Assembly (NCBI RefSeq): GCF_900113575.1
Contig: NZ_FOPV01000003.1
Location: 124,001 to 188,000, forward strand
Origin: Nitrosospira sp. Nsp14
GTDB taxonomy: Bacteria; Pseudomonadota; Gammaproteobacteria; Burkholderiales; Nitrosomonadaceae
Direction: 5' to 3'
DNA length: 64,000 nt
Shown here: positions 29,511 to 44,852 of the stretch, one piece after another
Layout: each line of letters begins with the position of its first letter
Position numbering within the stretch: position 1 is the stretch's first letter
Notes under the pieces: generated by a model
Database searches by the model: none
The model's input: only the letters and a program-made list of their open reading frames with translations
What the model was told of the DNA's origin: nothing
Program-made: the position numbers and the translations under genes

Positions 29511-30674
29511 CTATGCATAGCACCGCAGTCTACGGGAGAAATTTTGCAGCACTTCAATGCCGCTTTCCTCCGCACGGTGGCACCAATCCTCTAACTGCTT
29601 CACCAGTTCATCCTTGGACATGGTCGAGCGTTGCCATACTGCAGCGAGTTCCTCACGCATCTTGTAAACCTTATCCAGCGTCGTAGTCTTGCTCAGCACC
29701 AGATTCAGCTTTATGCGCTCGTCTTCCTGCAAAGTTCTGGAATCTGCAAGCACCCATCGTTTAAGGGTGGAGCGGTCAACGCCTAGAGACGCGTCTTTTA
29801 GATGGTCAATTTCCTTCGCGAGGGTATGTTTCAGAGACTGCGCATACTTTGCCAGGACTTCGTAGCGATGGGAAATGACCGCCTGCAGCGTATCCAGGTC
29901 GCATTTCGTTTTTGCTGCATCCAGCCGTAGTTTTGGCGCGACCTTCTTGACCTGAGCCAGTCCCAGCGACTTAAGTATGCATATGTACATCCAGCCGATG
30001 TCAAACTCATACCATTTATTGGACAAACGGGCGGACGTGGCATACGCATGATGATTGTTGTGCAATTCCTCCCCACCGATAAGAATCCCCCAGGGAACAA
30101 CATTACGGCTGGCGTCTTCCGCCTGAAAATTGCGATAACCCCAGAAGTGACCTACGCCGTTGATGATACCGGCTGCAAAAATCGGAGCCCATGCCATCTG
30201 TATGGCCCAGATTGTCAACCCCATGGGGCCGAACAGAATGATATTGATGATCAGCATCAGCGCGACGCCTTTACGGCTGTGCTTGTCGTAGAGATTCCTC
30301 TCCAGCCAGTCGTCCGGGGTTCCATGACCATATCTTTCCAGCGTTTCCCTGTTCTTCGCTTCCGCCCGGTAAAGTTCCGACCCTTCTCTCAGAACCTTCC
30401 GAATACCAACAATCTGGGGGCTGTGGGGATCATCCACCGTTTCGCACTTGGCATGGTGCTTGCGGTGTATTGCTGTCCACTCCTTGGTCACCATGCCCGT
30501 GGTAAGCCACAGCCAGAAACGGAAAAAATGGCTGGGCAAGGGATGCAGTTCCAGCGAACGGTGTGCCTGATGGCGATGTAAATATATCGTGATGCTGGCG
30601 ATTGTTACATGGGTAAGACCCAGAATAACCAGAACATAGCCCCACCAAGGCAAGTCCACAAGACCTAAAGTCAT
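29511..30674 (-). CDS. Acyl-lipid/acyl-CoA delta-9-type fatty acid desaturase with C-terminal extension
   Basis: Membrane di-iron desaturase (387 aa). Histidine boxes: HRHQAHR, HRKHH and HNNHH, in the right order and spacing, between four membrane segments. It introduces double bonds into membrane fatty acids. The frame opens at 30752, but MTLGLVDLPWWGYVLVILGL from the ATG at 30674 is the family start. Beyond the desaturase core (after about residue 280) is an extra helical region of some 110 residues (ending WCHRAEESGIEVLQNFSRRL). This is known from DesA-type proteins of Pseudomonas/Nitrosomonas and resembles transposase helical tails. Confidence 0.9.
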   Translation of the reverse strand: MTLGLVDLPWWGYVLVILGLTHVTIASITIYLHRHQAHRSLELHPLPSHFFRFWLWLTTGMVTKEWTAIHRKHHAKCETVDDPHSPQIVGIRKVLREGSELYRAEAKNRETLERYGHGTPDDWLERNLYDKHSRKGVALMLIINIILFGPMGLTIWAIQMAWAPIFAAGIINGVGHFWGYRNFQAEDASRNVVPWGILIGGEELHNNHHAYATSARLSNKWYEFDIGWMYICILKSLGLAQVKKVAPKLRLDAAKTKCDLDTLQAVISHRYEVLAKYAQSLKHTLAKEIDHLKDASLGVDRSTLKRWVLADSRTLQEDERIKLNLVLSKTTTLDKVYKMREELAAVWQRSTMSKDELVKQLEDWCHRAEESGIEVLQNFSRRLRCYA

Positions 30675-30867
30675 GAAATTACAACCTTTTTTTGAGTAAG
30701 TTGCGGAAGAAAAACCAAACGGAAATGTAATGAAAAATGAGCGATTAGTCAAGAAATACTATCATCTACGACATTCATCATGACGCTGGAACGGATCCTA
30801 GAAACCCAGCAGATGGACAGGGCGGTCATTAGGAAGAAGTAGCTCTGGACTTAGGTAAAGACTGGGC

Positions 30868-31512: not shown

Positions 31513-31977
31513 TCATACCGGCTTGGCCACCATGAGGTAAAACACGACCACCAGCGCAAAAAACGCAGGAATGCCGAGCGCAATCCAGAGGCGGAAGTAG
31601 CGCCAATACAAATCTGGTAAATGGCTTTTGCGGTCGCTTGCCTCAGCCGCCAGCCGCTGCATTCTTATTTGCAACCACACCACCGGTATCCAGCAGGCCC
31701 CGGCTATAACGTATAAGCCTATCGACCAGGATATCCAGCGGGCTGTTAATGGGATATCCGCGAGGAAGACGAGGTAAAACCCGGTAAGGGGCTGAATAAC
31801 AATTGTGGTTGCGGTGAACAGCCAGTCCGCTGTCACTACGTTTTTCCCCACGGCAGCCACGATCGGGGGGTTCCTCGTCCGACTCGCGCAAATCATATAA
31901 TAGGCCGTGCCGATACCCGTGCCAAAGAGTAAGGTTGAAGAGAGAATATGAAGCCATTTCGCCATAATGTATTCCAT
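31513..31977 (-). CDS. DUF2269 family membrane protein
   Basis: Four-helix membrane protein (154 aa). Seen: MAKWLHILSSTLLFGTGIGT, NVVTADWLFTATTIVIQPLT and the C-terminal AFFALVVVFYLMVAKPV. The ATG at 31977 overlaps the stop of the SDR-DoxX gene (TAATG); a second ATG at 31965 is an alternative. The pair SDR-DoxX plus DUF2269 recurs in proteobacteria and is probably translated together. Function unknown; a role in membrane redox chemistry is only a guess from the partner. Confidence 0.87.
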   Translation of the reverse strand: MEYIMAKWLHILSSTLLFGTGIGTAYYMICASRTRNPPIVAAVGKNVVTADWLFTATTIVIQPLTGFYLVFLADIPLTARWISWSIGLYVIAGACWIPVVWLQIRMQRLAAEASDRKSHLPDLYWRYFRLWIALGIPAFFALVVVFYLMVAKPV

Positions 31978-33248
31978 TACTGCTTTTCCAACTCGTACAG
32001 CACCAGTATTGCCGCCAGGATAGGCAGGTTTTTTATCAACGGCCCAAACGGATGCAACCAGAATTCGGGCAGATAAAAAGTAATGGTGACGGTATAGACA
32101 GCGATCAGTGTCGTCTGCGCTATCCATAGAAACTTTCGGCGCTGCAAAAATAGAGTTCCAAGGCCAAATGCAATATCCAGGGCGGCGGCGCCATAAAGTG
32201 CCACGGGCGCGAGGCCGCCAGTAATTCCCACTCGTGCGAGCAACTCATAGCTCTCTTCCACCGGGTACACTCCCATCGATACGACACCTGCCACCAGCCA
32301 GACGGCGGCGAGCGATATCCGCAGGACGAGCTGCAGCCAAGCCATCATCCCTGACACGCGCAATTCCTCCGCGCTCCAGCGGGATGTGAATTCACTCACC
32401 CGCCTGGGGTCGCGCCCGAGAAGTTCGCTCGTCGCGCCCGGATCAGCCGTGTTACCCCGCTGAAGCATCCGCCATGTGTCGAGATCGAGCATTCCTTTTC
32501 CAGACCATTGACTCATTTGCGCAGAAAAATCGATCAAGCGCGCAGGAATGTGCAAAAACTTTCCCGGACCCAACCCCATGGAATGCCGCAATTCATCCAG
32601 ATATCGCTGCAATGTAAGAGGTTCGGGACCAACAAGCGGGACACGCTGACCTTGATAGCGATCGGTTTCCACCAGCCTCACCACCGCTTGGGTCAGGTCG
32701 TCGATGTGTATGGGCTGTATGGCCTGGTCGCCGGTGCCCGGCAACGGAATCAGAGGCAAGCTTGCTATCATATTGAACAGCCGGGCGCTCGTCCCGCCTG
32801 GTCCGTATACAAGCGACGGCTGCACGATCACCGCGTTGTTTGATGAAGCCAGCAGGGCGTCATCCGCAGCTTTTTTGCTGAGATGATACTGGCTGCTCGC
32901 CTGCTCATCGGCACCCAAGGCGGATATCTGCACAATCCTTACTCCGGCGGCGGCCGCGAAAAGGGCGCGCGGCGCGCGGTCATGAAGGGCTTCGAAGGTC
33001 TGGGACCCGTGTTCCCGCAAAATTCCCACTGCGTTGACAATGACATCTATACCCCCCAACCGTCTTTGCCAGACGACGGGATCGAAATCGCGCGTGTAAT
33101 CAGCTGGAACACAGCGGAACTGGCGCCATCGCCCGGTGGACGGACATTTTCTTACCGCGCACCTGACTTCGTGCCCAGCCTCAGCCAGCGCCTCAGCAAT
33201 GTGGCTGCCGATGAAACCGCTCGCGCCTGTAATCAACACCGTTGCCAT
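31977..33248 (-). CDS. NAD-dependent epimerase/SDR fused to DoxX-like membrane domain
   Basis: Two-domain protein (423 aa). Residues 1-285: extended-type short-chain dehydrogenase with TVLITGASGFIGSHIAEAL (Rossmann GxxGxxG), SALGADEQASSQYHLSKKAA (YxxxK: Y in SQYHLSKK) and VQPSLVYGPGG. Residues about 305-423: four membrane helices of a DoxX-like/SURF4-type domain (VLRISLAAVWLVAGVVSMGV to the end). Related to NDUFA9-like atypical SDRs. Overlaps the DUF2269 gene. Substrate unknown. Confidence 0.9.
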   Translation of the reverse strand: MATVLITGASGFIGSHIAEALAEAGHEVRCAVRKCPSTGRWRQFRCVPADYTRDFDPVVWQRRLGGIDVIVNAVGILREHGSQTFEALHDRAPRALFAAAAGVRIVQISALGADEQASSQYHLSKKAADDALLASSNNAVIVQPSLVYGPGGTSARLFNMIASLPLIPLPGTGDQAIQPIHIDDLTQAVVRLVETDRYQGQRVPLVGPEPLTLQRYLDELRHSMGLGPGKFLHIPARLIDFSAQMSQWSGKGMLDLDTWRMLQRGNTADPGATSELLGRDPRRVSEFTSRWSAEELRVSGMMAWLQLVLRISLAAVWLVAGVVSMGVYPVEESYELLARVGITGGLAPVALYGAAALDIAFGLGTLFLQRRKFLWIAQTTLIAVYTVTITFYLPEFWLHPFGPLIKNLPILAAILVLYELEKQ

Positions 33249-36593: not shown

Positions 36594-39500
36594 TTGCGGG
36601 ATTACTCTCCCGATCAATTGCAGTCTACGGCTGCGCAGCTTTTTCACGGCACACCGATGAAGGCGACGTACAACGAAATTTTCTCATCCTACTGGCAGGC
36701 GGGTTACGAAGGCGCGGATCACGTCAATGGTACCGGATTGCCGCTATCGATGAACGATATTACCCGCCATGCGACCCTCGCTTATGACGATTATTTGTTA
36801 TTAAATGACTTCGACATCAGAACGGTGCGCGAAAGCGTGGGATGGCGGCTCGTGGAAAAGGACGGGCATTTCGATTTCTCATCCATTGAGGCGCGCGTGC
36901 GCGCGGCCGAGGAGCTTGGGTTACAGGTTATCTGGACACTATGTCATTACGGCTGGCCAGATGATGTCGATGTGTACTCCCCTGCATTTATTGACCGGTT
37001 TGCCAACTATTGTCATCACGTGGTCAAGTACCTCGAATCGCGCTCCAATCAGCATGCCGTAAATATCTATTCGCCCATAAACGAGATCTCGTTTGCCAGC
37101 TGGGCCAGCGCACGAATTGGATTTATGCGCCTAGATCTGCATGGCGACGATGGCACGGAAATGAAACGCCAGCTCGTGCGCGCCACATTGAAGAGCTGTG
37201 AAGTGATCTGGGAAATTAACCCCTCAGCGCGCATCCTGCATTGCGATCCGCTGATACATGTTATCGCTCCAGATGACCAGCCCGATCTCGGCGATTACGC
37301 CGCGATGCAACGGGAATCTCAATTCGAGGCGTGGGATATGCTTTGTGGCCAGCGAGAGCCAGAGCTGGGCGGAGCGCCGCAATTCCTGGATCTCGTGGGT
37401 GTGAATTACTATCACAGCAACCAGTGGCAGACCGACGGCAACGTCATTCATAACCTTTGGTGGCATCTCGATCATCCCTACCGGGTGCCGCTGTATAGCC
37501 TGCTGATGGAAGTGCAAGACCGCTATCGCCGCCCGATACTGCTGGCTGAAACCAGCCATGTCGGGAGTGGCCGCGGCGCATGGATCAAGGAAGTGGCACG
37601 CGAAGCAGTAATGGCTCAACAACGGGGGGTCGAGCTGCACGGTATTTGCCTGTATCCGATAGTGGACCGGCCTGATTGGGACGATCCTTACCGATGGCAT
37701 AAAAGCGGCTTGTGGGAAGTGAACATTCATGGTGAAGAAGAAAAATGTTACCAACGTGTTCTGTCACAACCCTACGCCGCGGGTCTGCGCGAGGCCCAAC
37801 GTCTGATAAAAAGCTTTTCTACTCATTATCCTAAAACTCTAGCCACACCCACTATTCAAGGAGCCGCAATGACCACCATTATCGTTTTTTCTCACCTCCG
37901 TTGGGACTTCGTGTATCAGCGGCCACAACACCTGCTGTGCCGGATGGCTGAAAACTACAAGATTCTGTTCATTGAGGAACCGATCTTCCACGAGCATGAC
38001 AGCTTCCTCGAAACTTCCACCCCGGCGCCGCACATCACGGTTCTAAAACCCCATACGCCGGTCGCCGCCCCTGGTTTTCATGATGAGCAATTGCCTCATC
38101 TGATAAAACTGATGCGGCAGTTCGTGGCAAACGATGAGCCGCATATGGCGTGGTTTTATACGCCAATGGCCTTGCCGCTGCTGCAGGAACTGGACCCCAC
38201 GCTGGTAGTGTACGATTGCATGGACGAGCTGGGGTCTTTCAAGAACCCGCCGAAGCAGATGCTCCAGCGCGAGAATGCGCTGTTCAAGGTAGCCGATCTG
38301 GTGTTCACCGGCGGCCCGAGCCTGTATCGTACAAAACGGGAGCGCCATCCAAACGTGCATTGCTTTCCCAGCAGCGTTGACCTCGTGCACTTCGAACAGG
38401 CCCTCGATCGCAACAATATCCACCCGGCGCACGAAAATATCCCCGGCCCAAGGCTCGGCTACTATGGAGTGATTGATGAGCGAGTAGATCTCGAGCTTAT
38501 CGACGGTTTGGCTGAGGCACACCCCCGATGGCAGATTGTTCTGGTGGGGCCAGTGGTGAAAATCGATCCGGCCGCATTGCCCAGGCGCCATAACATCCAT
38601 TATCTGGGGCAGCAGCCCTATAAAGCGCTCCCACAGTTCCTCGCCGGCTGGAACGTGTGCCTGCTGCCGTTCGCGCTGAACGAAGCGACCCGCTTTATCA
38701 GTCCCACCAAAACCCTCGAGTATATGGCGGCCGAACTGCCAATCGTAAGTACGCCGATCGTTGACGTGCTGGAGCTCTATGGCGAAGTCGTTGCCATCGC
38801 AGACTCCCCGCAAGCTTTTATCAAAGCCTGCGAAAATGCGCTGCTGACCACGCCGGAGGAGCACACGCGCAACGTTCTCAGGATGAGAGAACTGGTATCG
38901 GAAACCTCATGGAACACCACCGCGGAAAAAATGCACGAACTGATACACCACACTCACGCGCAAAAGGAAAAATCGCTAAGCGAAGCACGGGCGGAGCGCA
39001 AGCCACAAACGCTTCCCCAACGCGAAATTCAACCGGAGCGCGCAGAACACCGGAAATACGTGATCATCGGAGGGGGACCTACTGGTTTGAGCGCGGCTTA
39101 TCATCTCGATGAGAACACCGTCTTGCTGGATAAGAACACGGCCGTCGGAGGCTGGTGCCGCTCGATCGAAGATAAAGGTTTCACCTTCGATCATGCCGGC
39201 CACATCATGTTTTCAAATGATCCGTATGTGCTGCAGCTCTATAAAATCCTTCTGGGCGATAATGTGCATTGGCAAAACCGGGAAGCCTGGGTGTACAGCA
39301 AAGGCGTCCACACTCGCTATCCATTCCAGGGCGCATTGCACGGCCTGCCCCCGGACGTCATCAAGGAATGCATTATTGGCGCAATGGAGTCACGCTATGG
39401 CGCGCTGAAAAATCAGAATCCGAAAAATGCGGCTGCCTGCGAAGGCGTTGACGGCGCGGCGGCCGTGCTTTCAGACTGCTGCGCTGATGGAACAGTGCCG

Positions 39501-40505
39501 GAGTCCGGCACAACCGTTCTGCGCCAGGAGATGACGAGCGCAAAAGGCCGGCCGGAAAACTTCGAGGAGTTCATTTACAGAATGTGGGGCGCAGGTATCG
39601 CGAAACACTTTGCCATACCCTACAACAGAAAGCTCTGGACTGTTCCGCTGACTGAGATGGAGACCTCCTGGCTCGGGGGACGGGTGCCTTTACCTGATCT
39701 CGAAGAAATCATTGAGGGGGCCCTAAGCCCTGTCGCAAAGCCGATGGGCCCGAATGCGCGGTTCGGATACCCCTTGCGCGGCGGTTTTCAAGCGATGATG
39801 TCCGGCTTTCTCCCGCATATTAAGGGAAAGATCGAACTCAACGCGGACGTGGTGAGCATCTCGCCGGAGAAGCATTTGCTGATGCTGGCTGACGGTCGCC
39901 AGTACAAATACGAAAATCTAATCAGCACAATGCCCCTGCCCGAATTGATCCGACGCATGGGTAACGAAGCGCCGGAGCCAATCAGAAAAGCGGCGGCGGC
40001 GCTTCGTCATGTATCCGTGCGTTGTGTCAATCTCGGCATCGGTCGCGAGAATATTTCGGAAAAGCACTGGATTTATTACCCGGAAGACACGATATTCCAC
40101 CGCATCTTCCTTCAGGGCAACGCAAGTCCACAGTGCAATCCGCCTGGTGGGTTTGGTCTCACCTGCGAAATATCCTACTCGCCCGCCAAACCTCTCCCCT
40201 GCGATGGGCAGGAACTGATCGACCGTTGCGTGGAGGATTGCATCAAGGTAGGCATGATGACGCCCGAGGACAAACTGATCACCGCCAACTTGGTTGATAT
40301 GCCGTACGCCTACGTGGTGTACGATCACGTCCGCAAGCAGAACGTCGAAACCGTCAAAAAGTGGCTTTCAAAGCGGGATATCGTCCTGTCGGGTCGTTAC
40401 AGCGAGTGGGAGTATTACAATTCCGACCACGCATTTTTAGCCGGCAAAAAAGCGGCGGAGATGGTCAAGCAGGTGAAGTTCCGCGAAAAAATGTATGTCA
40501 GCTAA
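36594..40505 (+). CDS. Tripartite fusion: GH1-like glycosidase, GT-B glycosyltransferase, UGM-like FAD protein
   Basis: One uninterrupted frame of 1303 codons joins three enzymes. Residues 1-about 405: glycoside-hydrolase family 1-like TIM barrel, with YSPINEISF (putative acid/base E164) and PILLAETSHVGSG (putative nucleophile E319). Residues 427-785: GT-B glycosyltransferase (SHLRWDFVYQRPQHLL, GYYGVIDERVDLELI, ISPTKTLEYMAAELPIVST with E709). A charged linker (786-820) leads to 821-1303: FAD-binding, UDP-galactopyranose-mutase/amine-oxidase-like domain (YVIIGGGPTGLSAAYHL; VGGWCRSIEDKGFTFDHAGH). The TTG at 36594 is the furthest start; the ATG at 36657 (MKATYNEIF) is at least as likely, and an ATG at 36551 with a better ribosome site lies in another frame. 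An internal ATG at 37869 has its own Shine-Dalgarno. Probably glycoconjugate or exopolysaccharide synthesis. Confidence 0.85.
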   Translation: MRDYSPDQLQSTAAQLFHGTPMKATYNEIFSSYWQAGYEGADHVNGTGLPLSMNDITRHATLAYDDYLLLNDFDIRTVRESVGWRLVEKDGHFDFSSIEARVRAAEELGLQVIWTLCHYGWPDDVDVYSPAFIDRFANYCHHVVKYLESRSNQHAVNIYSPINEISFASWASARIGFMRLDLHGDDGTEMKRQLVRATLKSCEVIWEINPSARILHCDPLIHVIAPDDQPDLGDYAAMQRESQFEAWDMLCGQREPELGGAPQFLDLVGVNYYHSNQWQTDGNVIHNLWWHLDHPYRVPLYSLLMEVQDRYRRPILLAETSHVGSGRGAWIKEVAREAVMAQQRGVELHGICLYPIVDRPDWDDPYRWHKSGLWEVNIHGEEEKCYQRVLSQPYAAGLREAQRLIKSFSTHYPKTLATPTIQGAAMTTIIVFSHLRWDFVYQRPQHLLCRMAENYKILFIEEPIFHEHDSFLETSTPAPHITVLKPHTPVAAPGFHDEQLPHLIKLMRQFVANDEPHMAWFYTPMALPLLQELDPTLVVYDCMDELGSFKNPPKQMLQRENALFKVADLVFTGGPSLYRTKRERHPNVHCFPSSVDLVHFEQALDRNNIHPAHENIPGPRLGYYGVIDERVDLELIDGLAEAHPRWQIVLVGPVVKIDPAALPRRHNIHYLGQQPYKALPQFLAGWNVCLLPFALNEATRFISPTKTLEYMAAELPIVSTPIVDVLELYGEVVAIADSPQAFIKACENALLTTPEEHTRNVLRMRELVSETSWNTTAEKMHELIHHTHAQKEKSLSEARAERKPQTLPQREIQPERAEHRKYVIIGGGPTGLSAAYHLDENTVLLDKNTAVGGWCRSIEDKGFTFDHAGHIMFSNDPYVLQLYKILLGDNVHWQNREAWVYSKGVHTRYPFQGALHGLPPDVIKECIIGAMESRYGALKNQNPKNAAACEGVDGAAAVLSDCCADGTVPESGTTVLRQEMTSAKGRPENFEEFIYRMWGAGIAKHFAIPYNRKLWTVPLTEMETSWLGGRVPLPDLEEIIEGALSPVAKPMGPNARFGYPLRGGFQAMMSGFLPHIKGKIELNADVVSISPEKHLLMLADGRQYKYENLISTMPLPELIRRMGNEAPEPIRKAAAALRHVSVRCVNLGIGRENISEKHWIYYPEDTIFHRIFLQGNASPQCNPPGGFGLTCEISYSPAKPLPCDGQELIDRCVEDCIKVGMMTPEDKLITANLVDMPYAYVVYDHVRKQNVETVKKWLSKRDIVLSGRYSEWEYYNSDHAFLAGKKAAEMVKQVKFREKMYVS
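37858..37871 (+). promoter_or_regulatory. Internal ribosome site and start at the GH1/GT junction
   Basis: AAGGAG at 37858-37863, 5 bases, then ATG at 37869, in frame with the fusion gene and exactly where the glycosyltransferase domain begins (MTTIIVFSHLRWDFVYQRPQ). It would give a separate GT-FAD protein of 878 residues as well as the full-length product. Confidence 0.65.
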
Positions 40506-40517
40506 TCAGAAAAAGCA

Positions 40518-40700
40518 GTGCGCGTCTTTGACACGATCATAGACGCGCATATCCATTGTTCCGGCGATGAAAAGACAGACGATGTACTACGGGCACTAGA
40601 TGAGACCGGGTAGATAAGACGGTCTTGCTTGCGCCTTTTTTTAACGGCAACCACTTCATGTATGACGGTGACTCGACGCGAACAGAGAGGGGAAAAGCCG
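40518..40700 (+). pseudogene. Amidohydrolase N-terminal remnant
   Basis: Starting at GTG 40518, 12 bases after the fusion gene, the frame reads VRVFDTIIDAHIHCSGDEKT, then DDVLRALDETG and a stop at 40611. The HxH (HIH) after beta-strand 1 is the amidohydrolase metal motif. If one base is restored at the GGG near 40608-40610, the frame continues as VDKTVLLAPFFNGNHFMYDG, a natural extension of the same family. After about 40700 the resemblance ends. It looks like a broken amidohydrolase-2-type gene whose remaining body is lost. The downstream open frame to 41083 (starting with TTG at 40625) is likely not a real gene. Confidence 0.62.
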
Positions 40701-41107
40701 CTCGAAAATGGGCCGGGGAGAAGTTCGAGCTCAGCGAACGTGTCAGTCAGACCAGCGAACTGCTAAGCTCCCTGGCTAAGATGCGGACTAAGACGCGATA
40801 TCACGGCGAACTGAGTATTGAAACGTGTGACGGCGACGTAAAAAAAGGCCCTCGAACTGTCTTCCATGGGAAATCAAAGTCCTCCCTACGACAGGAGGGC
40901 GGGCGTCGCAGGATGGAATGGGTCAACGGAGACGAAATAAGCCATCCTCTCCAGAAGCATGACAGGCAGACCAAGCCCATCCTCGCCGATAAGATCAGCG
41001 CTAGCTTGCTTGTGCATTTGGCCTCCCCGAGCTCGAAATCAGGTTATCGTGAATGCCAGGCTTGGGGGACGAAGGCTTATTGAGTGGCTTCTTAGCATTC
41101 TTTCAGG
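40701..41107. other. Unassigned stretch after the amidohydrolase remnant
   Basis: An open frame continues to 41083, giving charged sequence such as EKFELSERVSQTSELLSSLA with no recognisable family. I do not call it a gene; it may be diverged or rearranged DNA from the lost amidohydrolase. Confidence 0.4.
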
Positions 41108-43096: not shown

Positions 43097-44584
43097 TCAA
43101 CTTTTAACAGTAATGTTATAGGGGCCCGTGCCGGCTGGGCTGTAATGCCTGACCTGAATGAAATATGCTCCCGGTGCAAGACTCGCCACGATCCTGGAGT
43201 TGGTGCCCGGACCGCTATCATCGTCCTGGGCGATGAGGGTATTCGGATTGACGGGACCGTACAATGTAATGAAGCAGTCAGTGCTGCCAGCAGTTTCGAT
43301 GGTATAGCTGCCGGAATTCGCGGCGGTGAATGTGTACATATCTCGCTCGTTTCCTGCAGAAATCGCCCCGGCTACGGCTGGACCATTCACCGCGATAGTG
43401 GGGACAGCAGGCTGCCCTGCCGAGGCGCTGACGGAAATACTGTAATTTCCAGTGGACGAACTGCTGTAGTGCCGCAACCGCACATAATAGGTGCCTGCCG
43501 ACAAATCTCTAGCAATGCGCGAATTCTGACCGGTTCCACTGTCGTCATCTTCGGTAATGAACACTTCCGAATCGTCGGGCCCGTACAGGCCCATCACCAC
43601 GTCCGTCGTGCCTTGTGTTTCGATGACATGGTTGCCGGCGGCTGATACCTCAAAAGTGAATATGTCAACCTCCCCTGCCCGACCGATCGAGGCGGAGACA
43701 GGGGGCGCACCGATGGTCAGCGCAACGCTCTCCGGTGTAGTCGTCGGTTCGTTGTCATACGAGTAGTCAAGCGCATGATGGTTAAGTACGCTTCTCGGCG
43801 TGGGGGGCGTCGGTTCGCCGTCCCATGGCGGCATCGGGTCATCCAGCCCGTGTCCTGCAACCACCCCAGGCGTGCCGCTGGGTGGCAAATACATGCGGCC
43901 GGGATTCTCCGTTTGCCACTCGGCCCAAAGCCGATCGATGTTGCAATGGTGCAGCCAGAATACAGGATCGTTGGGTGACGACATGGCCATCATTGAGCCA
44001 CCAACCCACATGTGCCCCGGGTTGTGTATGACCCGTTCAAGCCGGTTGCGGAAGCTTGTGTTCACGTTGCTGCCCGCATTCCACGGAGGGGAGTCGTACG
44101 GCACGACGCTTTTAGCGGTGTCAACCGCCTGCTGCGTTGGCAACGACCCCATGGCGCCGAAAGCACGTGTAAGGAAGGCAGTCGTATCGCCCGGGTCGAG
44201 AACCGTGAGCGTCCATTCCCCGGTCAAAAAGGCAAAAGGCCCGGTGGTCACCTGCTGGCTGGCACCCGTGCCGTTGTCGCCCATGAAATTGGGACCCCAA
44301 ATCGAAGCGGTGGGTGTTCTGTCGACGGTCCAGTCCCAATATGGCAGGGACACACTTGCATCGATCTCCTGAAGCGCTCGTTCGAACCGGCGCAGATACT
44401 CCCGGTGCCAAGGCAGGAAGGCAGGTCCTCCATGGGCGGGATCGTTGGGGCCAGCGAGAAAAGCCGCACGGTGCTGAGCCACGAAGGCGTCATACACGCC
44501 ATTTGCCTTCAGCGCTTTTACCGCGACGACGAAGGCGGACTTTTCAGCCGGCGTCAGGCTGGACTGGTTCTTGCGGATACCCAT
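43097..44584 (-). CDS. Tyrosinase with two C-terminal PPC domains
   Basis: Type 3 copper oxidase (495 aa) oxidising phenols to quinones. CuA ligands: H38, H51 and H60 (GGPAFLPWHREYLRRFERAL). CuB ligands: H187, H191 (HNPGHMWVGG) and the LHH at 212/213 in PVFWLHHCNIDRLWAEW. After about residue 290 come two bacterial pre-peptidase C-terminal (PPC) beta domains (292-388 and 397-495), each with a YGP...DDDSG...SRI core (DDDSGTGQNSRIARDL; DDDSGPGTNSRIVASL). No signal peptide is visible. The ATG at 44584 follows the MelC1-like stop by one base, so the two are coupled. PPC domains usually belong to exported enzymes, which conflicts with the lack of a signal. Confidence 0.92.
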   Translation of the reverse strand: MGIRKNQSSLTPAEKSAFVVAVKALKANGVYDAFVAQHRAAFLAGPNDPAHGGPAFLPWHREYLRRFERALQEIDASVSLPYWDWTVDRTPTASIWGPNFMGDNGTGASQQVTTGPFAFLTGEWTLTVLDPGDTTAFLTRAFGAMGSLPTQQAVDTAKSVVPYDSPPWNAGSNVNTSFRNRLERVIHNPGHMWVGGSMMAMSSPNDPVFWLHHCNIDRLWAEWQTENPGRMYLPPSGTPGVVAGHGLDDPMPPWDGEPTPPTPRSVLNHHALDYSYDNEPTTTPESVALTIGAPPVSASIGRAGEVDIFTFEVSAAGNHVIETQGTTDVVMGLYGPDDSEVFITEDDDSGTGQNSRIARDLSAGTYYVRLRHYSSSSTGNYSISVSASAGQPAVPTIAVNGPAVAGAISAGNERDMYTFTAANSGSYTIETAGSTDCFITLYGPVNPNTLIAQDDDSGPGTNSRIVASLAPGAYFIQVRHYSPAGTGPYNITVKS

Positions 44585-44585
44585 G

Positions 44586-44852
44586 TTATCTTCCCGCCTC
44601 TTCGTAATCGATGATCTTTTTCGCCAAATCGACGGGAGACGGTTGGGGGTCGAACGCAAAGCCGGATGCGATGTATGCGCCTGCGGAATTGCGCACAATA
44701 AAGACCCGCTTCCCGTCAATGGTCAGTTCAGGCTCATCTGCAGTTCGCCCCTGTTCTCCTGAAACTCGCGCATCGCTACGCGCCGCCAGCGCCTCCGCTC
44801 CTGTCAGGAGAATAATCTCGCGCCCTTTGTAATTTTCCCGTTGCTCCGCCAT
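44586..44852 (-). CDS. MelC1-like tyrosinase co-factor (caddie) protein lacking copper ligands
   Basis: 88 aa. The pattern YKGREIILL ... LTIDGKRVFIVRNSAGAYIA ... FDPQPSPVDLAKKIIDYEEA follows Streptomyces MelC1 (YKGRRIQ ... VFVDGxxLHVMRNADGSWIS ... YDPVPTPRAAARAAVDEL), the chaperone that delivers copper to tyrosinase. It ends one base before the tyrosinase ATG, the same order as melC1-melC2. Unlike MelC1 it has no signal peptide and contains no His, no Cys and no Met after residue 1; the HxM pair and the active-site-inserting Tyr appear as FIV and F. Similarity is judged from memory of the MelC1 sequence, so family membership is likely but not proven. Confidence 0.7.
   Translation of the reverse strand: MAEQRENYKGREIILLTGAEALAARSDARVSGEQGRTADEPELTIDGKRVFIVRNSAGAYIASGFAFDPQPSPVDLAKKIIDYEEAGR

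Follow-up and report, generated by a model that had tools for sequence, protein, structure and literature searches.

A fused GH1-like, glycosyltransferase and UDP-galactopyranose mutase gene in Nitrosospira as a probable one-polypeptide module for galactofuranose transfer

Our results support the model that a single gene of Nitrosospira sp. Nsp14 specifies a one-polypeptide module for cytoplasmic transfer of galactofuranose (Galf), served by a recycling route through a glycoside hydrolase family 2 (GH2) enzyme and the Leloir pathway, and sequence comparison leads us to regard this model as probable. The gene occupies 36594-40505 on the plus strand of a stretch of 64,000 nucleotides (the window; C21:124001-188000 of a 3.36 Mb genome, contig NZ_FOPV01000003.1) and joins a domain resembling glycoside hydrolase family 1 (GH1), a GT-B glycosyltransferase (GT) and a eukaryotic-type UDP-galactopyranose mutase (UGM), a flavin adenine dinucleotide (FAD) enzyme. 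Because the same trio is found, fused or as neighbours, in many unrelated bacteria, it is probably a real and undescribed galactofuranose pathway and not an oddity. A preliminary description of this DNA had already reported one stop-free frame of 1303 codons with GH1-like, GT-B and UGM-like parts and had singled out N163-E164, E319, E709 and the GGGPTG Rossmann loop; the frame is indeed open, each of the three domains was matched by the searches given below, and all of these residues lie where they had been placed. The features of the gene are as follows, with the ratio of non-synonymous to synonymous substitution rates abbreviated dN/dS and the predicted local distance difference test pLDDT.

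36594..40505, plus strand: entire fusion gene, 1303 codons when counted from TTG, alternative start ATG 36657; homologous full-length fusions known
36681..37778, plus strand: GH1-like (beta/alpha)8 domain, residues ~30-395 (profile against the PDB, AlphaFold/Foldseek, aligned catalytic Glu)
37080-37085, plus strand: N163-E164, acid/base of the GH1-like domain by alignment to GH1 NEP
37548-37550, plus strand: E319, nucleophile of the GH1-like domain by alignment to GH1 ENG
37779..37865, plus strand: inter-domain linker 1, residues 396-424, fast evolving (dN/dS 0.57 versus 0.04-0.09 in the domains)
37866..38993, plus strand: GT-B glycosyltransferase domain, TuaH-like, residues 425-800 (Pfam Glyco_trans_1_4 7.5e-10; NCBIfam TuaH 3.4e-22; 80-member alignment)
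38718-38720, plus strand: E709 of the GT (80-member alignment)
38994..39050, plus strand: linker 2, residues 801-819, predicted disordered at ~801-813 (pLDDT <50)
39051..40502, plus strand: eukaryotic-type UGM domain, residues 820-1303 (T. cruzi and A. fumigatus UGM matches)
39069-39086, plus strand: FAD loop GGGPTG, residues 826-831 (alignment)
39405..39545, plus strand: variable disordered insert in the UGM domain, residues ~938-984 (~47 residues; pLDDT ~30, unaligned to UGM structures)

The C-terminal domain very probably catalyses the mutase step, the conversion of UDP-galactopyranose (UDP-Galp) to UDP-Galf. Homology extends over the whole domain to the UGMs of T. cruzi (4dsg, 3.2e-50) and A. 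fumigatus (3ute, 8.7e-49), and Foldseek matches it to the A. fumigatus enzyme at 2.5e-35. G826, G828, P829, T830 and G831 of the FAD loop are invariant in 75 UGM homologues. Alignment to the A. fumigatus and T. cruzi proteins shows that H870 (H63), R896 (R91), Y909/F911/Q912 (Y104/F106/Q107), N1011 (N163) and W1015 (W167) are kept, as are R1030 (R182), N1054 (N207), Y1161 (Y317), R1170 (R327), Y1240 (Y419), R1268 (R447), Y1274 (Y453) and N1276 (N457). All of these active-site residues, which include the His, two diphosphate-binding Arg and a set of Tyr and Asn, are invariant over the 75 homologues and only Y334 is replaced, by alanine; brackets give the A. fumigatus numbering, at a chain offset of 3. 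The window protein falls far under the cut-off for the bacterial mutase Glf (TIGR00031; 20.2 versus 303.75 bits).

The strongest evidence that this domain makes UDP-Galf for the adjoining GT is that two distantly related mutase families occupy the same place. Loci with this GT carry the eukaryotic-type UGM in 77 cases, canonical Glf in 22 and both in none; the 77:22 ratio is biased, since a UGM-containing query found part of the eukaryotic-type loci, whereas the zero overlap is unbiased. Glf is fused to the GT or lies less than 270 bp away in 21 of the 22 canonical-Glf loci, among which annotated cases come from Comamonas, Azospirillum, Mesorhizobium, Deinococcus, Chryseobacterium, S. meliloti and Caballeronia. 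Comamonas antarctica has a GH1-GT fusion followed by glf, and Azospirillum a GT-Glf fusion with a GH1-like protein and an MsbA-like exporter. Neither mutase is present at four GT loci, one of them ended by a contig end. On the GT tree the mutase type changed at least four times, and the Glf branch includes Variovorax, whose mutase is of the eukaryotic type. In the 23 Nitrosospira genomes no protein reaches the family cut-off for canonical Glf. A fusion series with two interchangeable mutase types represents a clean non-orthologous replacement inside one pathway.

The GT domain scores above the cut-off for Pfam glycosyl transferases group 1 (PF13692, 39.7 versus 27 bits), and E709 is invariant in 80 GT homologues. 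The E-x7-E motif of GT4 enzymes is incomplete, with only the second acidic residue present, in KTLE709 (K706-x-x-E709), and the TuaH equivalog NF047676 is not reached (78.9 bits versus a cut-off of 550). We consider it likely that UDP-Galf is its donor.

Genes for galactose use accompany this GT. In operons of the methanotrophs Methylomagnum (annotated), Methylocaldum, a Methylococcales genome and Methylobacter, genes for GH2, GalT and GalK come after GT-UGM, and a GH1-like gene flanks the group on one side. A GH2 of this kind lies near 35 loci. The window genome has GH2-GalT-GalK at C21:7127-11108, ~150 kb from the fusion and with 58-65% identity to the Methylomagnum genes, and also carries GalE and a protein that joins a GH1-like domain to an RmlD-type reductase, together with an ABC exporter. 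Among the 23 Nitrosospira genomes, GalT is present in 14 of 15 with an intact GT-UGM and in none of the other eight (Fisher 1.8e-5, kinship ignored); GH2 and GalT are both present in 11 of 11 genomes with the full fusion. The nearest solved relatives of the linked GH2 are 7XYR (6e-97), 7SF2 and the Streptomyces beta-D-galactofuranosidase 9J6M/9J6N (8e-64 for 9J6N), with scores of 329-218 bits against at most 98 bits for the remaining GH2 enzymes, and the Nitrosospira protein keeps the catalytic NE and EFGG (N396-E397, E496). By these relatives and catalytic residues it belongs to the GH2_18/19 furanosidase group: 7XYR is a GH2_19 and 9J6M a GH2_18 enzyme of the furanoside-specific group (PMC12243196), and the Streptomyces enzyme ORF1110 was shown to be Galf-specific (PMC4560423). 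As a separate observation, the fusion of a GH1-like domain with an RmlD-type reductase recurs beside homologues of the same GT (L143:6681-8867 in G000:C18, L087, L093, L097, L104, L130 and L137), and the Nitrosospira GH1-RmlD protein lies near second GT copies.

The N-terminal domain, taken as a single sequence, lies under the detection of Pfam PF00232. When 47 homologues were combined into a profile, its best matches among solved structures in the PDB were GH1 glycosidases (1.4e-17), and the AlphaFold model of the domain, one of two parts in which the structure was predicted (GH1-like and GT-UGM), has a pLDDT of 94 and a predicted template-modelling score (pTM) of 0.93 and gives Foldseek top matches that are all GH1 beta-glycosidases (3.8e-18). 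N163, E164 and E319 do not vary among 66 homologues of the GH domain, so that both catalytic Glu of the GH1 family (E164, E319) are kept, with the flanking motif residues altered. For any given role of this domain, be it hydrolysis or transfer, our assignment can be tentative at best. It may contribute a third step of synthesis as a transglycosidase, and not a hydrolase, by passing the newly attached sugar from its carrier on to the final acceptor, a possibility to which we give a little less than an even chance. Plant SFR2, a GH1 enzyme, is a transglycosidase acting on galactolipids. The absence of a signal peptide with both catalytic Glu invariant, the fusion to or proximity of a transferase in most loci, the fusion of a rhizobial GH1-like domain to a different GT, and sugar-site motifs that depart from those of GH1 hydrolases (DNFEW to DRPDW, NEP to NEI) are all consistent with such a step. 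However, the sequence here cannot separate GH1 hydrolases from transglycosidases, and some strains with GT-UGM have lost the GH1-like domain.

The preliminary description had known of no described protein with this three-part order and had held that clearly separate genes in many related genomes would refute it. The protein is not a one-off: the fusion is kept in about 40 loci from several orders. Separate and two-part states do exist; they do not refute the fusion, because both states coexist in a clear series. Classified by open reading frame (ORF), 39 of 81 loci have GH1-GT-UGM in one frame, 16 a fused GT-UGM with a separate GH1-like gene and 11 a GT-UGM with no GH1-like gene nearby; the remainder are GH1-GT (five), GH1-GT with a broken-off UGM (two) and other split states (eight). 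Full fusions are carried by Nitrosospira, Nitrosomonas, Oxalobacteraceae, Pantoea/Mixta/Erwinia and Xanthomonas, mainly within one branch of Beta- and Gammaproteobacteria that includes Pantoea and Chimaeribacter plasmids. They are rare across 398 Pseudomonadota genomes, with one besides the window and three GH1-GT fusions, and within the 23 Nitrosospira genomes the whole fusion is found in 11, GT-UGM with a decayed GH1-like part in four, and nothing or relics in eight. The window fusion is one stage of this series, and other phyla have separate neighbours or two-part fusions. Database records name the fused protein only 'FAD-dependent oxidoreductase' or 'NAD(P)-binding protein'.

Fusion need not have a functional consequence: enzymes of one operon could have merged by loss of stop codons and still act independently, without channelling. 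The flexible, fast-evolving linkers and the persistence of unfused versions across many phyla fit this account, and we hold it possible, slightly less so than the transglycosidase. It is harder to reconcile with the repeated origins of fusions that draw on two UGM families (GT with eukaryotic-type UGM, GT-Glf, GH1-GT, and GH1-GT with eukaryotic-type UGM), a pattern suggesting that proximity is favoured.

Three further loci deserve mention in their own right. A reduced genome of 1.1 Mb in the Pantoea branch (L132, G177:C5) keeps the GH1-GT fusion with no mutase nearby, and another locus (L111) keeps GH1-like and GT parts, likewise with no mutase nearby. A Sinorhizobium meliloti plasmid (L124:8947-16810) encodes a GT-Glf fusion, a 1080-aa fusion of GT, oxidoreductase and Zn-dehydrogenase, and a 758-aa GT-GH1-like fusion.

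The mutase could act on another nucleotide sugar, such as UDP-GalNAc, UDP-arabinopyranose or dTDP-fucose, so that the product would carry a different furanose. UGM relatives with other substrates exist, one Tyr that contacts the ligand in the fungal enzyme (Y334) is Ala here, and a GH1-RmlD protein with its deoxysugar-type reductase domain adjoins some homologues. We nonetheless find this unlikely, as a Glf above the TIGR00031 equivalog cut-off substitutes for the domain elsewhere, GalK and GalT stand in the operons, and the linked GH2 is closest to beta-galactofuranosidases. Of the two glycan types proposed at the outset, furanose-containing remains the best reading, and the same GalK, GalT, furanosidase-group GH2 and Glf substitution tell against deoxysugar-containing.

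The frame measures 1321 codons from stop to stop, and the antisense ORFs within it are shadows. Its start is uncertain: neither the listed TTG at 36594 nor the ATG at 36657 (residue 22) has a clear Shine-Dalgarno sequence, and resemblance to most relatives begins at ~residue 21-30. A promoter scan around the gene gave no signal above chance. The nearest relative is the protein of Nitrosospira sp. Nsp2 (90% identity), and because dN/dS against it is 0.09 in the GH1-like, 0.04 in the GT and 0.05 in the UGM domain (0.08 overall), all three domains are under purifying selection. The ORF is not a product of chance, because full-length homologues of ~1240-1420 codons occur in dozens of species and dN/dS is low. 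That the gene is a sequencing or assembly artefact, or is in decay as are adjoining genes of this strain and the GH1 part in N. multiformis strains, has a negligible probability given the equally long homologues from numerous separately sequenced genomes and the low overall dN/dS.

A Galf transfer module could operate as follows. UDP-Gal would come from GalE or, where galactose is recycled, by way of GalK and GalT. The C-terminal flavoprotein would convert UDP-Galp to UDP-Galf as a reduced-flavin mutase like the fungal and trypanosomal UGMs, and the tethered GT-B would spend UDP-Galf on the spot, placing Galf on an acceptor. MsbA-like exporters beside some homologues hint that this acceptor may be lipid-linked, or a small or exported glycoside. 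The GH1-like domain, to all appearances a catalytically competent retaining beta-glycosidase in the same compartment, might trim or proof-read the glycoside or move the glycosyl group to a second acceptor. The separate furanosidase-group GH2, with GalK, GalT and GalE, would then recycle galactose from the product.

Several points weigh against this model, alongside the bias in the mutase ratio. The GT donor is not evident from the GT sequence, whose nearest named family, TuaH, is remote. With a pTM of 0.54, the GT-UGM model gives no support for domain packing or a channel. Placed on an rpoB tree, the GH2-GalT-GalK link reduces to three independent contrasts, which all agree and are too few for significance. 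Because the GH1-like part is decayed in several N. multiformis strains where GT-UGM is intact, it is dispensable or needed only sometimes. Support for the pathway is computational: it covers the domain identities, conservation, selection, the fusion series, the exchange of the UGM domain for Glf and the link to GH2-GalT-GalK, whereas the GT donor, the acceptor, the role of the GH1-like domain and the recycling are inferred.

Genes next to the fusion are decayed in the window strain. Between the fusion and a BrkB gene, an internal deletion (40536-40819), outside the fusion itself, has left two joined remnants of genes that are intact in relatives (L033, L034, L036 and L057):

40536-40658, plus strand: amidohydrolase remnant (aa 2-42)
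40673-40819, plus strand: remnant of the end of a GT4 (aa 333-377), joined to the amidohydrolase remnant

The Zn alcohol dehydrogenase that lies upstream in relatives is absent from the window strain. At 31977-33248 on the minus strand, one gene combines an NAD-dependent epimerase with a DoxX-like membrane domain, and a gene for a DUF2269 membrane protein comes next; the arrangement is kept upstream of the GH1-GT-UGM fusion in several Nitrosospira. A 413-aa ORF (29511-30752, minus strand) that combines a fatty acid desaturase (residues 35-239) with the end of an ISL3-type transposase (residues 301-410) probably represents a desaturase that an insertion sequence has cut short. At 43097-44719 (minus strand) this ammonia oxidiser encodes a tyrosinase that carries a PPC domain at its C-terminus. 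Zn alcohol dehydrogenase, DUF421 and short-chain dehydrogenase/reductase neighbours had hinted at a general-stress regulon; we dropped this idea because no EcfG-like site among the five in the window lies close to the gene and because EcfG is a factor of Alphaproteobacteria.

Galactofuranose is not found in mammals and is best known from pathogens, and to our knowledge few galactofuranose transferases have been characterised. Our data predict Galf glycans in nitrifiers, methanotrophs, rhizobia, Acidobacteria, Deinococcus and plant-associated enterobacteria, and the natural fusion offers a one-protein system for asking whether UDP-Galf passes directly to a transferase. Whether the pieces form a widespread, undescribed bacterial Galf cycle, with a new GT-B Galf-transferase family using either of two distantly related mutase types, a GH1-type transglycosidase for a third step of synthesis, a return of galactose through a GH2 galactofuranosidase and the Leloir pathway, and a channelling megaenzyme in several lineages, is a bolder proposal that we regard as doubtful. 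In the open literature that we searched we found no description of the three-part fusion, of UGM or galactofuranose in Nitrosospira or other ammonia oxidisers, or of a UGM fusion in Pantoea or Sinorhizobium. UGM, GT-B and GH1 enzymes and Galf pathways are already known; as far as this literature shows, the three-part fusion, the GH1-like partner, the exchange of two mutase types and the association with a GH2 furanosidase and Leloir enzymes are new.

Each part of the system has known counterparts. The UGM domain has the fold and nearly all active-site residues of A. fumigatus UgmA and T. cruzi UGM (3UTE, 4DSG), but it is bacterial, C-terminal in a fusion, interrupted by an extra disordered insert and altered at Tyr334 (to Ala). 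Bacterial Glf (TIGR00031) takes the equivalent position in the 22 other loci, where it is joined to this GT or lies next to it, although the window domain is of a separate and only distantly related family. TuaH-type GT-B enzymes of teichuronic acid synthesis (NF047676) are the best named family for the GT (3.4e-22), which nevertheless scores far under their cut-off (79 versus 550 bits), and the TuaH pathway and taxa are different. With GH1 beta-glycosidases (Bg10, 7BBS; an ancestral GH1, 6Z1H) the GH1-like domain shares the (beta/alpha)8 fold and the positions of the two catalytic Glu, whereas it has only ~18% identity, lies below Pfam detection, has changed NEP, ENG and DNFEW motifs and is fused to a GT. 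The linked GH2 has its nearest solved relatives in GH2_18/GH2_19 furanosidases such as the Streptomyces JHA19 beta-D-galactofuranosidase (9J6M; PMC12243196, PMC4560423), but lacks a signal peptide in the part that was read and stands beside galactokinase genes. Finally, mycobacterial GlfT1/GlfT2 and Kingella PamABC (PMC12269835) combine a UGM with a Galf transferase that uses UDP-Galf, as would the proposed module; those are separate GT2/GT111 proteins, however, with no GH1-like partner and no such fusion.

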